This document shows positions 19,051-22,853 of a stretch of 52,818 nucleotides of DNA, one piece after another. The notes beneath the pieces are model-generated. The model made no database searches. It worked only from the letters and a program-made list of their open reading frames with translations, and was not told the origin of the DNA. The stretch is from contig JAKSOF010000015.1 of NCBI GenBank assembly GCA_024405735.1, positions 1 to 52,818 of the forward strand, given 5' to 3'. The position numbers were made by a program, and so were the translations under genes. Position 1 is the stretch's first letter, and each line of letters begins with the position of its first letter. This DNA is from Victivallaceae bacterium. GTDB lineage: Bacteria > Verrucomicrobiota > Lentisphaeria > Victivallales > Victivallaceae.

Positions 19051-19611
19051 ATGAAATATCTCGCGCTTGACATCGGCAACGTCTGCATCGCGATCGATCC
19101 CATTGCCGCCTTTGCCAAAATGGGCTTCAAGGGAGCGGATCCCGCTTTGCTTGCCGTCGAAATGAAATTTGAAACGGGATACATCACCGCCGACGAATTC
19201 TGCCGCGCCGTTTTATCCACCGATGCCGCAAAGGACAAGACGAAAGAGCAACTTTGCGAAATTTTCGACTCGATCCTCATTTCGCCCGTCCCGGGGATGA
19301 CGGAATTGATCGCCTCGCTCCCCGCGCGCGGGATCCAGCCGGTTTTCTTTTCCGACATCTCGACGCGCCATCTGGCGAAAACGCGGGAGATGTTTCCTGC
19401 GGCGAAGTTCGTCCCGTACGGCATTTACAGTTTCACGACGGGCGTCATGAAGCCTCATACTTTGATGTACCGCGCGTTTGAAGCGCGTTTCGGCAAGCCT
19501 TTCCTCTACACCGACGACCGCGCCGATCTCATTTCCGCCGCGCAAAAGTGGGGATGGGAAACGCACCGTTTCACCGACGCCGCCACCTTGGAAAAGGTGC
19601 TTTTTTCATGA
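19051..19611 (+). CDS. HAD-family phosphatase, YihX-like
   Basis: The 186-residue protein has the HAD motifs: motif I LALDIGNVCIAID (nucleophile Asp7, with Gly replacing the second Asp as in the YihX/DLGNV subfamily), motif II in FFSDIS, motif III Lys in GVMKPHTLMY, and motif IV YTDDRADLI. Subfamily members dephosphorylate sugar phosphates such as glucose 1-phosphate. It starts directly after the previous stop codon and overlaps mnmE by four bases (ATGA), so translation is probably coupled. A role in dephosphorylating an amino-sugar phosphate would fit the operon. Confidence 0.85.
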   Translation: MKYLALDIGNVCIAIDPIAAFAKMGFKGADPALLAVEMKFETGYITADEFCRAVLSTDAAKDKTKEQLCEIFDSILISPVPGMTELIASLPARGIQPVFFSDISTRHLAKTREMFPAAKFVPYGIYSFTTGVMKPHTLMYRAFEARFGKPFLYTDDRADLISAAQKWGWETHRFTDAATLEKVLFS

Positions 19612-20933
19612 ATACCACCGATACCATCGCCGCTCCGGCAAGCGCCGTCGGCGGAGCCGTTACCGTCATCCGCATCGCGGGGCCCGACGCGCTTAAAGTC
19701 GGAAACACGGTCTGGCAGGGGAAATCACCGCTCGGGAATGATTGCGTCAGGGTGATGAAACTCGGCAAAATCGGTCTGGAAAGCGCACTTGCCGTCTATA
19801 TGAAAGCCCCGGCAAGTTATACGGGGGACGACGTCGTCGAGATCCAATGTCACGGCGGAGCCGCCGCCGCCGATTGCGCGCTCCGCAAAATTTTTGCCGC
19901 CGGCGCGCGGTGCGCCGAACCGGGGGAATTCACCTTTCGCGCCTTTGTCAACGGCAAACTTGATCTCACGCAGGCGGAAGCGGTTTCCGACCTCATTTCC
20001 GCTTCGGGCGACGCCGCATTTCAACTTGCCGCGCGGCAACTGGACGGCGCGCTCGGGAAAAAGCTCGGGAAACTTTACGACACGTTGCAAAAGTTGCGTT
20101 CCGAATGTGAAGCGCGGCTTGATTTTCCCGACGAAACGCTTGATTTCGAGGAATTTCCGGAAAATTTCAACCTTGCTGAAAAGGAAATTTCCGAGTTGCT
20201 CGCCACACGCGATATTTCCGATAAGATGCGCAACGGCATCGAAGTCGTGCTGGCGGGGAAACCCAATGCCGGAAAATCCAGTTTGCTCAATTATCTCCTC
20301 GGCTACAACCGCGCGATCGTCAGCGACATTCCCGGCACGACCCGCGATACCGTCGACGCCGAAACCGTTTTGCGGCAAATCCCCGTCCACCTCGTCGACA
20401 CGGCGGGATTGCGCGAAACATCCGACCCGGTCGAGCAACTCGGCGTGCGGCGCAGCCGCGACAGCATCAAACTGGCGCAAGTGACCTTTTTCCTTCTCGA
20501 CGCGACCGGAGACGATCCCGCAGACGAAATCGCCTGTTTCAATGAAATTGCCGCGCCCAATGCGATCGCCGTCTGGAATAAGATCGACCTCGTCCCGGAC
20601 CGGGAATTGCCGGAAATCGTTTCTCCCGCCGTCAAAATCTCGGCGGCGACGGGCGAAGGCATCGAATCGCTTCTCGACGCTTTTGCCGAAAAAGTTTTCG
20701 GCAGCCGTCACTTCGATGTGCCGCAAGTCGCGCTCAACTCCCGTTGCGCCGCACTGCTTGAGGAGGCAAAAGGAAATCTCGACGCCGCCATCGCCCGCTT
20801 CCAAGAGGGCGATTTTGAACTTGCCGCCGAAGAACTCGCTTTTGCCGGGCGTCAGGTGGGAATGGCAGTAGGCAAAACGGTCGATCCCGATATTCTGGAT
20901 GAGGTTTTCCGGAACTTCTGCATCGGGAAATGA
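19608..20933 (+). CDS. mnmE: tRNA modification GTPase MnmE
   Basis: The 441-residue protein has the MnmE layout: N-terminal tetrahydrofolate-binding domain (DTIAAPASAVGGAVTVIRIAG), helical domain, inserted G domain and C-terminal FCIGK, the conserved Cys-x-Gly-Lys end. G boxes are GKPNAGKSS (217-225), DIPGTTRD (240-247), DTAGLRE (264-270) and NKID. With MnmG it forms the 5-carboxymethylaminomethyl group on U34 of certain tRNAs; mnmG is not in the window. ATG 19608 is chosen because it overlaps the upstream stop as ATGA and gives the normal N terminus. It ends a sugar-related operon, an unusual place for mnmE. Confidence 0.96.
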   Translation: MNTTDTIAAPASAVGGAVTVIRIAGPDALKVGNTVWQGKSPLGNDCVRVMKLGKIGLESALAVYMKAPASYTGDDVVEIQCHGGAAAADCALRKIFAAGARCAEPGEFTFRAFVNGKLDLTQAEAVSDLISASGDAAFQLAARQLDGALGKKLGKLYDTLQKLRSECEARLDFPDETLDFEEFPENFNLAEKEISELLATRDISDKMRNGIEVVLAGKPNAGKSSLLNYLLGYNRAIVSDIPGTTRDTVDAETVLRQIPVHLVDTAGLRETSDPVEQLGVRRSRDSIKLAQVTFFLLDATGDDPADEIACFNEIAAPNAIAVWNKIDLVPDRELPEIVSPAVKISAATGEGIESLLDAFAEKVFGSRHFDVPQVALNSRCAALLEEAKGNLDAAIARFQEGDFELAAEELAFAGRQVGMAVGKTVDPDILDEVFRNFCIGK

Positions 20934-20959: not shown

Positions 20960-22378
20960 TTAAAATCTGAAATCTCTTTTTCCGTCGTGAAGTTCCTGTA
21001 AATACTCGGAAGCCTTGGCGCGGACTTTTTCATCGGGGACGCGTTTCAATTCCTCTTTGATCGCGGCTTCGCCGAGTTTCTGCGTGTCGGGCGAGGCGTA
21101 ATCCTCCAGATATTCCTTGAGCGTCATCAGCGCGTTGGGCTGACAGCAGTTGGCGATCTGACCGGATTTCACAAGTTTCATAAAACGGTCGCCCGTGCGT
21201 CCGGCACGGTAGCAGGCGGTGCAGAAACTCGGGATATAGCCGTTGCGGAGCAACCAGTTGACCACCTGATCGAGCGTGCGGTGATCGGCAAGTTCAAACT
21301 GGGCGGAGTTCTCCTCCTCCTTTTCCTCTTCAGCATAACCGCCGACGCTGGTGCGGGAGCCGCCGCTGATCTGAGAGACGCCGCACTTGATGACTTCGGC
21401 ACGGACTTGCGGCGACTCGCGGGTGGAAATGATCAATCCGGTATAAGGCACGGCAATGCGGAGCACCGCGACGATCTTGAGAAAAATATCATCAGGCACG
21501 GCGTTGCTGAATGTACCGGCATCGATGTCGTCGGCGGGGCGGATGCGCGGCACGCTGATCGTATGAGGCCCGACCCCCTTGTAGGCTTCAAGGTGTTCGG
21601 CGTGCATCAGTATCCCCGTGAAATCATAGCGGTAAAGCCCCAGCCCGAAAAGAACGCCCAGTCCCACGTCGTCGATACCGCCCGTCATCGCGCGGTCCAT
21701 CGCTTCGGTGTGATAGGCGTAATCGCTCTTGGGTCCGGTCGGGTGAAGTCTTTCATATTCCTTTTTATTGTAGGTTTCCTGAAAGAGGATATATGTACCG
21801 ATGCCCGCGTCCTTGAGCTTCCGGAAATTTTCAACCGTCGTCGCGGCGATGTTGACGTTGACGCGGCGGATGGCGCCGTTTTTGTGCTTGATGCTGTAAA
21901 TCGTTTTGATGCTTTCAAGGACGTATTCGATCGGGTTGTTGACAGGGTCTTCGCCGAGTTCGATCGCCAGCCGCTTGTGTCCCATATCCTGCAGCGCGAT
22001 GACTTCGCGGCGGATCTCCTCCTGTGTCAACTTATGGCGGCGGATGTGTTTGTTTTTATGATGATAAGGGCAGTAGACGCAACCGTTGACGCAGTAGTTG
22101 GAAAGGTACAGCGGCGCAAACATCACGATGCGGCGGCCGTAGAATTTTTCCTTGATCTCGCGGGCAAGGGCAAAAATCTTTTCGTTGAGGTCGGGCAGCG
22201 AGCAGTCGAGCAACAGCAACGCTTCGCGGTGCGACAGCCCCTTGCAGTCACGCGCACGCTCGATGAGGCGCTCGATCAATGCGCGGTTGTCGCGGTTCTC
22301 GTCGGCGTATTTCAGCGAAGACAGAATTTCGTCGTCGCTGATGAAATCGACGGCGCGGGGGGATTTGACATCGTACAT
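20960..22378 (-). CDS. hydG: [FeFe]-hydrogenase maturase HydG
   Basis: This 472-residue radical-SAM enzyme has the CX3CX2C cluster motif (Cys96, Cys100, Cys103 in CVNGCVYC) and the HydG-specific C-terminal CX2CX22C motif (Cys386, Cys389, Cys412) that binds the auxiliary cluster. HydG splits tyrosine to give the CO and CN ligands of the H-cluster. The C-terminal motif separates it from ThiH. AAGGA precedes ATG. It follows a TM1266-type gene by 12 bases. HydA, HydE and HydF are not in this window, so they must lie elsewhere if the hydrogenase is made. Confidence 0.95.
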   Translation of the reverse strand: MYDVKSPRAVDFISDDEILSSLKYADENRDNRALIERLIERARDCKGLSHREALLLLDCSLPDLNEKIFALAREIKEKFYGRRIVMFAPLYLSNYCVNGCVYCPYHHKNKHIRRHKLTQEEIRREVIALQDMGHKRLAIELGEDPVNNPIEYVLESIKTIYSIKHKNGAIRRVNVNIAATTVENFRKLKDAGIGTYILFQETYNKKEYERLHPTGPKSDYAYHTEAMDRAMTGGIDDVGLGVLFGLGLYRYDFTGILMHAEHLEAYKGVGPHTISVPRIRPADDIDAGTFSNAVPDDIFLKIVAVLRIAVPYTGLIISTRESPQVRAEVIKCGVSQISGGSRTSVGGYAEEEKEEENSAQFELADHRTLDQVVNWLLRNGYIPSFCTACYRAGRTGDRFMKLVKSGQIANCCQPNALMTLKEYLEDYASPDTQKLGEAAIKEELKRVPDEKVRAKASEYLQELHDGKRDFRF

Positions 22379-22390
22379 AAAAAAATTCCT

Positions 22391-22642
22391 TTATTTGAGA
22401 ATTTTGGACTGCAATGATTTGACGCTGACGCCCGGAAGCATTCCGAGCTTGCCGCTCAACGCGCCGACCGTATCGGAGGGCGCATCGAGGACGATGCTGA
22501 TGATGCTCAACTTTTCCTGACGGTAGGGGATCCCCATCCGCCCGATGATGGATCCGGCGTATTCGTGCAGAATGCGGTTGACTTTTTCCGCCGCTTCCGG
22601 TTCTTCGACGATGATGCCGACCAATGAGATCCGACGCTCCAT
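22391..22642 (-). CDS. TM1266-type iron-only hydrogenase system regulator
   Basis: This 83-residue protein (MERRISLVGIIVEEPEAAEK, HEYAGSIIGRMGIPYRQ, SIVLDAPSDTVGALSGKLGM) matches the small ACT/NikR-like fold family named after Thermotoga TM1266, which is often found beside hydrogenase maturation genes and is annotated as a putative regulator. No DNA-binding motif is visible, so a direct role in transcription is unproven. GGAGGAG precedes ATG. It is the first gene of the transcript with hydG, after a leader of about 175 bases. Confidence 0.88.
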   Translation of the reverse strand: MERRISLVGIIVEEPEAAEKVNRILHEYAGSIIGRMGIPYRQEKLSIISIVLDAPSDTVGALSGKLGMLPGVSVKSLQSKILK

Positions 22643-22657
22643 AAATGCTCCTCCGGC

Positions 22658-22818
22658 AAAAAAAAATGCTTTCCATCCCGAAACAGGGAGAAAGCGTTCA
22701 GCGTCGACCTTGCGCCCAAGCCCTGCCCGCAGGGAAAAATCCCCCTTGGAATCGGTACTTCGACTGAAAAAAAATCCCCCTGGTTGCGGGCGAACCCGTA
22801 AGGAGCGGGATATTCCGT
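22658..22818 (-). ncRNA. Structured mRNA leader, candidate attenuator/riboswitch
   Basis: Transcribed from the promoter at 22825-22853, this leader contains several helices. A UUCG-capped hairpin (22787-22798) lies within AUCCC/GGGAU arms (22807-22811 with 22774-22778) followed by about eight U. A closing helix GUCGA/UCGAC (22760-22764 with 22703-22707) encloses CCAAG/CUUGG (22745-22749 with 22716-22720) and GCAGGG/CCCUGC. Last comes a terminator-like hairpin (22668-22695) followed by nine U (22658-22666), directly before the ribosome binding site. CAGGGGGA (22775-22782) can pair with UCUCCCUG (22684-22691) of that last hairpin as an antiterminator. It matches no riboswitch class I recognise. 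Confidence 0.5.
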
Positions 22819-22824
22819 TGACTT

Positions 22825-22853
22825 AATATACTCTTTATGCTGCTTTTTGTCAA
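22825..22853 (-). promoter_or_regulatory. Promoter of the TM1266-hydG unit
   Basis: Minus strand: TTGACA (22848-22853), 17 bp, TATATT (22825-22830), nearly perfect consensus. It lies immediately after the stop codon of the upstream pyrophosphatase gene. Confidence 0.75.

Follow-up and report, generated by a model that had tools for sequence, protein, structure and literature searches.

The contig JAKSOF010000015.1 of a Victivallaceae bacterium, the 52,818-nucleotide stretch of DNA analyzed here (hereafter the window), raises the question of how the TM1266-hydG operon on its minus strand is controlled. A preliminary description of the sequence had proposed that the leader of about 175 bases preceding TM1266 is a transcription attenuator governed by a ligand or a protein, possibly TM1266 itself. 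Our analysis revealed that the conserved element of this leader is a tandem motif of ~38 nt, and we consider it likely that the leader belongs to an undescribed cis-regulatory RNA family controlling [FeFe]-hydrogenase H-cluster maturation genes. There is support for the family as such, for its structure and association with particular genes, and for its family-wide complementarity to terminators, which is significant in Bacillota but not in Lentisphaeria alone. The proposal of a controlled attenuator gains support from the covariation of the motif, its specificity for H-cluster maturation and its terminator-complementary 3' strands. If correct, this would mean RNA-level control of hydrogenase cofactor assembly in several phyla. 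It would also give a testable role to TM1266, a family that is annotated as 'putative regulator' and has no DNA-binding domain, and offer a route to the metal or intermediate monitored by cells during H-cluster synthesis.

Similarity between leaders at the DNA level is almost nil, the sole match of a whole-leader search besides the window itself being 31 bp long, and thus structure models were needed. In Lentisphaeria leaders a pattern recurs, often twice, consisting of UCUGA, a variable arm, AGGG, a loop, CCCG, a variable arm and NAAG. The resulting motif comprises helix P1 (UCU/AGR, three pairs), a GA/NA purine loop, a variable helix P2 (four pairs), an NA/GN loop and helix P3 (GGG/CCC, three pairs). 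Of 29 Lentisphaeria leaders, about 20 showed a second copy, some of them weakly. Alignment of all copies with MAFFT was misaligned, and a seed of eight equally spaced copies was used instead for covariance model R1; model R2 was based on 37 sequences, and R3 is the later model used on Clostridia. In alignment A9, which holds 62 distinct motif copies, 90.9% of cells were paired, double-sided changes numbered 110 vs. 30.3 in shuffled data, and the covariation score was 0.528 vs. 0.183 in shuffled and 0.07-0.14 in slid versions. Since A9 had been fitted to the structure, P2 was retested with columns set solely by their distance to P3, a test that is less affected. It gave 166/183 paired cells vs. 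96.8 ± 5.5 (0/2000 shuffles) and nothing at offsets 1 or 2. P2 and P3 covary strongly, with the compensatory changes expected of a structured cis-regulatory RNA. The preliminary description had named a lack of covariation or conservation as the result that would speak against it; covariation and conservation were both found, and its core claim was not refuted. A DNA operator in place of an RNA was also considered; the covariation of P2 in the absence of a conserved sequence and the variable length of the P3 loop led to its rejection. In locus L013, the P3 loop of the motif located ~200 nt before TM1266 is apparently split by a lengthy, perfect inverted repeat, so that the motif halves lie far apart.

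The distribution of the motif is closely tied to one pathway. TM1266 was matched in 98 of the 137 genomes of the window's order (86 above the curated cut-off), and hydG directly follows it in many of the loci fetched. R1 yielded 37 matches in 35 TM1266-hydG loci, eight of them the seed, all on the strand of TM1266 and 54-339 nt upstream of it. When R2 was run over the 137 whole genomes, all 26 matches with E<1e-3, from 20 genomes, were located at TM1266 loci. A phylum-wide scan added another order of the class, with the arrangements motif-TM1266-hydE (L123, L124, L127) and motif-TM1266-hydG (L125). In other phyla, where species genomes were scanned for TM1266 and then with R2, the motif was found upstream of TM1266 in Bacillota, including Clostridium, Acetobacterium, Sporomusa, Negativicutes, Oscillospiraceae, Lachnospiraceae and others, and in an Alphaproteobacterium. 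A planctomycete locus (L151) gave a weak match (E 0.39). Overall, across ~800 whole genomes, the covariance model places the motif ahead of TM1266, hydE, hydF and hydG, with hardly any occurrence elsewhere. Two Sporomusa loci (L224 and L232), both motif-TM1266-hydG with equal scores, lie ~700 kb apart on one contig. In L126 (1501-1539) an R3 match of 31.4 bits with a promoter precedes a prepilin-like gene; that genome is 77% complete without a detected TM1266, and the match may reflect an assembly error or an exapted copy.

In 371 Clostridia genomes R3 gave 45 matches (E<=0.003) in 44 genomes. TM1266 lies downstream of the motif in 37 of the 44, followed mostly by hydE or hydG, by hydF-hydG in L304, and by an ATP-binding cassette (ABC) transporter in four loci (L301, L302, L303, L305). 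Five motifs precede a maturase gene without an adjoining TM1266, namely hydE-hydG (L254), hydF (L264, L268) and hydG (L274, L276), and motif-hydE was found in L225 and L233, outside the 44 genomes. The hydF-led operons indicate that all three maturases can be under the motif. In L266/L300 the motif precedes an ABC transporter with no TM1266 in between. A SsuA/NMT1-like binding protein is encoded in 4/5 transporter loci, that of L302 having no family match, and 4/5 of these loci come from genomes without detected HydG; the substrate of the transporter could hint at the sensed compound. A pair of matches in genome G504 (L275, an agmatine deiminase locus, neither HydG nor TM1266 detected) was judged to be a false positive. 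In L306 (884-5511), from a Clostridia metagenome-assembled genome, motif-hydE is followed by genes for a NifH-like and two nitrogenase-component-1-like proteins.

In the window itself, copies 1 and 2 scored 5.8 bits (E 0.21) and 16.8 bits (E 1.8e-4), respectively, in 301 bases, and the counterpart of copy 2 in L036 reached 30.5 bits. L033 and L036 are the closest syntenic relatives, congeners with the same pyrophosphatase-TM1266-hydG order. At the position equivalent to P1 of copy 1 they carry UUCC/GGGGAA and CCCC/GGGG, respectively. A CGGG-UUCG-CCCG or AGGG-UCCG-CCCG hairpin, a (C/G)AGGGG strand and a CCAAGG...GC...GGCAG block are kept across the three loci, and both relatives possess a hairpin with a U-tract where the window has its terminator. 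The window copies may be degenerate members, identified by position, tandem order and their counterparts in L036 and L033. The preliminary description had also pointed to a closing helix (22703-22707 with 22760-22764). It exists in the window (GUCGA/UCGAC) but is absent from both relatives. The U-tract after the first hairpin is also missing in L033 and L036, so the first hairpin, previously read as a possible terminator, is not a conserved one.

Concerning the mechanism, an intrinsic terminator lies between the promoter and TM1266 in the window, as is required of an attenuator; its hairpin, with nine U directly ahead of the ribosome binding site, was seen both in the minimum free energy (MFE) fold and in the sequence, in agreement with the preliminary description. 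The eight-base pairing noticed there was confirmed as well: CAGGGGGA pairs with the terminator 5' arm UCUCCCUG in 8/8 positions at -14.0 kcal/mol, and GGGCAGGG is a second partner at -10.7 kcal/mol. The respective pairings are nine pairs and -14.1 kcal/mol in L033, and -15.8 and -18.7 kcal/mol in L036. A terminator hairpin was found downstream of 75/87 motifs. The motif 3' strand pairs with the 5' arm/loop of its own terminator at a mean of -11.0 kcal/mol vs. -9.73 ± 0.27 kcal/mol for swapped combinations (0/10000), and with other parts of its own leader at -6.6 and -5.3 kcal/mol. The gain is carried by Bacillota (-10.58 vs. -9.10 kcal/mol). In L008, L020 and L178 the motif 3' strand ends in the Shine-Dalgarno sequence. 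In the mechanism we propose, a hairpin of ~38 nt serves as the unit, often in tandem, its three short helices being separated by two internal loops that are purine-rich and conserved. An effector would stabilize the units and sequester the 3' strands CAGGGGGA and GGGCAGGG, the U9 terminator would form and TM1266-hydG would be switched off. Without effector the 3' strands would pair with the terminator 5' arm and transcription would continue. In some species the 3' strand overlaps the Shine-Dalgarno sequence instead. Both arrangements predict that the stabilized motif means OFF, a direction of control that we regard as quite probable.

Besides the fitting of A9, a number of observations weigh against this interpretation. 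A chance match on the opposite strand inside the pyrophosphatase gene scored 18.5-18.9 bits, more than either window copy, and membership of the window in the family therefore rests on synteny with L033 and L036. In Lentisphaeria alone, pairing with the own terminator was no better than with swapped ones (-11.78 vs. -11.83 kcal/mol). Furthermore, a shuffled motif strand reached -10.07 kcal/mol, nearly the real value, and composition thus accounts for much of the terminator pairing.

As regards the effector, the chances seem about even that it is the TM1266 protein, a stand-alone sensor resembling the NikR C-terminal domain, rather than a small ligand. The AlphaFold model of TM1266 (predicted local distance difference test score, pLDDT, 94) has its best structural match in Thermotoga 2nzc (Z 16). 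It also superposes on the NikR C-terminal sensor domain (Z 12-13, root-mean-square deviation 1.5-1.9 over ~80 residues, 10-22% identity). Among the HydG-positive Clostridia, the motif was found in 37/182 genomes with TM1266 vs. 0/48 without it (Fisher 1e-4, uncorrected for phylogeny), and among HydG-negative genomes with TM1266 in 6/46. This co-occurrence lends support to the earlier suggestion that TM1266 binds the RNA, for which it remains a candidate. TM1266 is also the effector that calls for the fewest assumptions, given that it is a sensor lacking a DNA-binding part, that the RNA hairpins come in tandem and that the regulon is shared. On the other side, no motif was detected in 185/228 TM1266 genomes, part of the co-occurrence follows trivially from most motifs adjoining TM1266, and conserved basic TM1266 residues are nearly equal with and without the motif, with no clear separation. 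In its full form, to which we give somewhat less than an even chance, the proposal is that TM1266 would be the first stand-alone RNA-binding sensor of the NikR C-terminal type, responding to iron or an H-cluster precursor. It would clamp the tandem leader hairpins of hydE, hydF, hydG and its own gene and switch off H-cluster synthesis through attenuation or Shine-Dalgarno masking, and its paralogues would use the same RNA code for the ABC transporter.

The strongest alternative, which we find possible though doubtful, is a true riboswitch, with the motif as the direct receptor for a small ligand or metal ion of H-cluster assembly and TM1266 as no more than a co-regulated gene. Typical of riboswitches are the strong conservation of loop nucleotides, the tandem units resembling aptamers and the overlap with terminators or Shine-Dalgarno sequences, and the motif does precede maturase genes and the SsuA/NMT1-type transporter without an adjoining TM1266. 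However, none of the 48 HydG-positive genomes lacking TM1266 carries the motif, all six genomes with a motif away from TM1266 (G504 excluded) encode TM1266 elsewhere, and genomes without HydG still have the motif in front of TM1266 or the transporter. It is improbable that the binder is another protein, or metal-loaded TM1266 acting only together with an unknown partner; the link between TM1266 and the motif is a correlation, which leaves room for such a binder, but no other gene was seen as consistently with the motif, though no systematic search was made. Finally, an ordinary leader, in which the last hairpin terminates partially and constitutively and G-rich and C-rich sequence yields the complementarity by chance, is very hard to maintain given the covariation, the restriction to one pathway and the recurrence across phyla, even if the swapped pairings of Lentisphaeria and an unexceptional stability (z -1.27; 21/200 shuffles at least as stable) would suit it. 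Folding energy alone would have revealed nothing, as the leader is not unusually stable.

No described RNA family corresponds to the motif. Rfam 15 gave no matches in the window, in accordance with the earlier statement that no riboswitch class is known to be assigned to hydG leaders, and none in 20 loci from Bacillota and elsewhere. With the cut-off relaxed to E 1, ten Lentisphaeria loci returned a single match, to an unrelated snoRNA and weak, and the matches from permissive scans of individual leaders were likewise weak, scattered and well under the gathering thresholds. Searches of the literature and of the main texts of large RNA-motif surveys returned no hydrogenase-linked motif (supplements and subscription papers were outside the search). 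The PyrR-binding, L10 and TRAP leaders are similar in that leader hairpins serve an operon-encoded protein, in a regulon of several leaders, and in that binding hairpin, antiterminator and terminator are mutually exclusive, as proposed here. They differ in sequence and structure (best Rfam score 18-19 bits vs. gathering 44-54) and in their genes, and the candidate protein here has a NikR C-terminal/ACT fold. Tandem riboswitches (glycine, guanidine-II) also combine two small similar aptamer-like units with one expression platform, but the motif has no Rfam match and its presence in genomes follows the candidate protein. The NiCo (czcD) riboswitch is a four-way junction; the motif could be imagined as a Fe-responsive RNA of a metal-cofactor pathway, but it forms one hairpin interrupted by two internal loops and has no counterpart in Rfam. 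TM1266 differs from NikR in lacking the ribbon-helix-helix DNA-binding domain. In Thermotoga neapolitana, TM1266, hydG and hydE rise together. TM1266-hydG is reported to be under Rex in Clostridium thermocellum (PMC8457756); Rex would regulate the same genes as a DNA-binding redox repressor at the promoter, whereas the motif is located in the leader RNA.

The features of the locus are collected below.

Table. Coordinates of the TM1266-hydG locus and its leader in the window.
Feature	Position	Strand	Basis or remark
Pyrophosphatase gene, DHH/CBS/DRTGG domains	24554-22857	minus	ends just ahead of the promoter
-35 box TTGACA	22848..22853	minus	just beyond pyrophosphatase stop codon
-10 box TATATT	22825..22830	minus	predicted transcript start ~22818
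Motif copy 1, putative degenerate member; P1 AUCCC/GGGAU, P3 CGGG-UUCG-CCCG	22775..22812	minus	covariance model, weak alone; synteny
CAGGGGGA, 3' strand of copy 1 P1, alternative partner of terminator 5' arm	22775..22782	minus	
Motif copy 2, putative degenerate member; ACCGA-UUCC-AA-GGGGGAUUUUUCCCU-GC-GGG-CA-GGG	22718..22759	minus	covariance model
GGGCAGGG, copy 2 3' strand, second alternative partner of terminator 5' arm	22721..22728	minus	
Intrinsic terminator hairpin GCUUUCUCCCUGUUUCGGGAUGGAAAGC	22668..22695	minus	forms in MFE fold
Terminator 5' arm UCUCCCUG	22684-22691	minus	
Terminator U9 tract	22658..22666	minus	sequence; A between hairpin and U9
TM1266 Shine-Dalgarno GGAGGAG	22648..22654	minus	sequence; directly after U9
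TM1266-family gene, ATG at 22642	22391..22642	minus	TIGR03959 117.5 bits, E 1.6e-34
hydG	20960..22378	minus	TIGR03955 905 bits, E 7e-273

The TM1266 gene passes the TIGR03959 threshold of 60.8 bits. The promoter, TTGACA-17-TATATT at 22853-22825, matches the consensus in 11/12 positions, bearing out its earlier description as near-perfect. It is the sole one within 900 bp (shuffles expect 0.3), and the leader starting from it spans ~22818-22643 on the minus strand, in line with the length of about 175 bases given previously. L033 and L036 carry TTGAAA-17-TATATT and TTGCAA-17-TATATT, respectively, at the equivalent place, and 24/33 Lentisphaeria leaders have a promoter with at most three mismatches vs. 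7.4 expected from shuffles. At the other end of the operon, mnmE (19548-20933, plus strand) adjoins hydG and is convergent to it.
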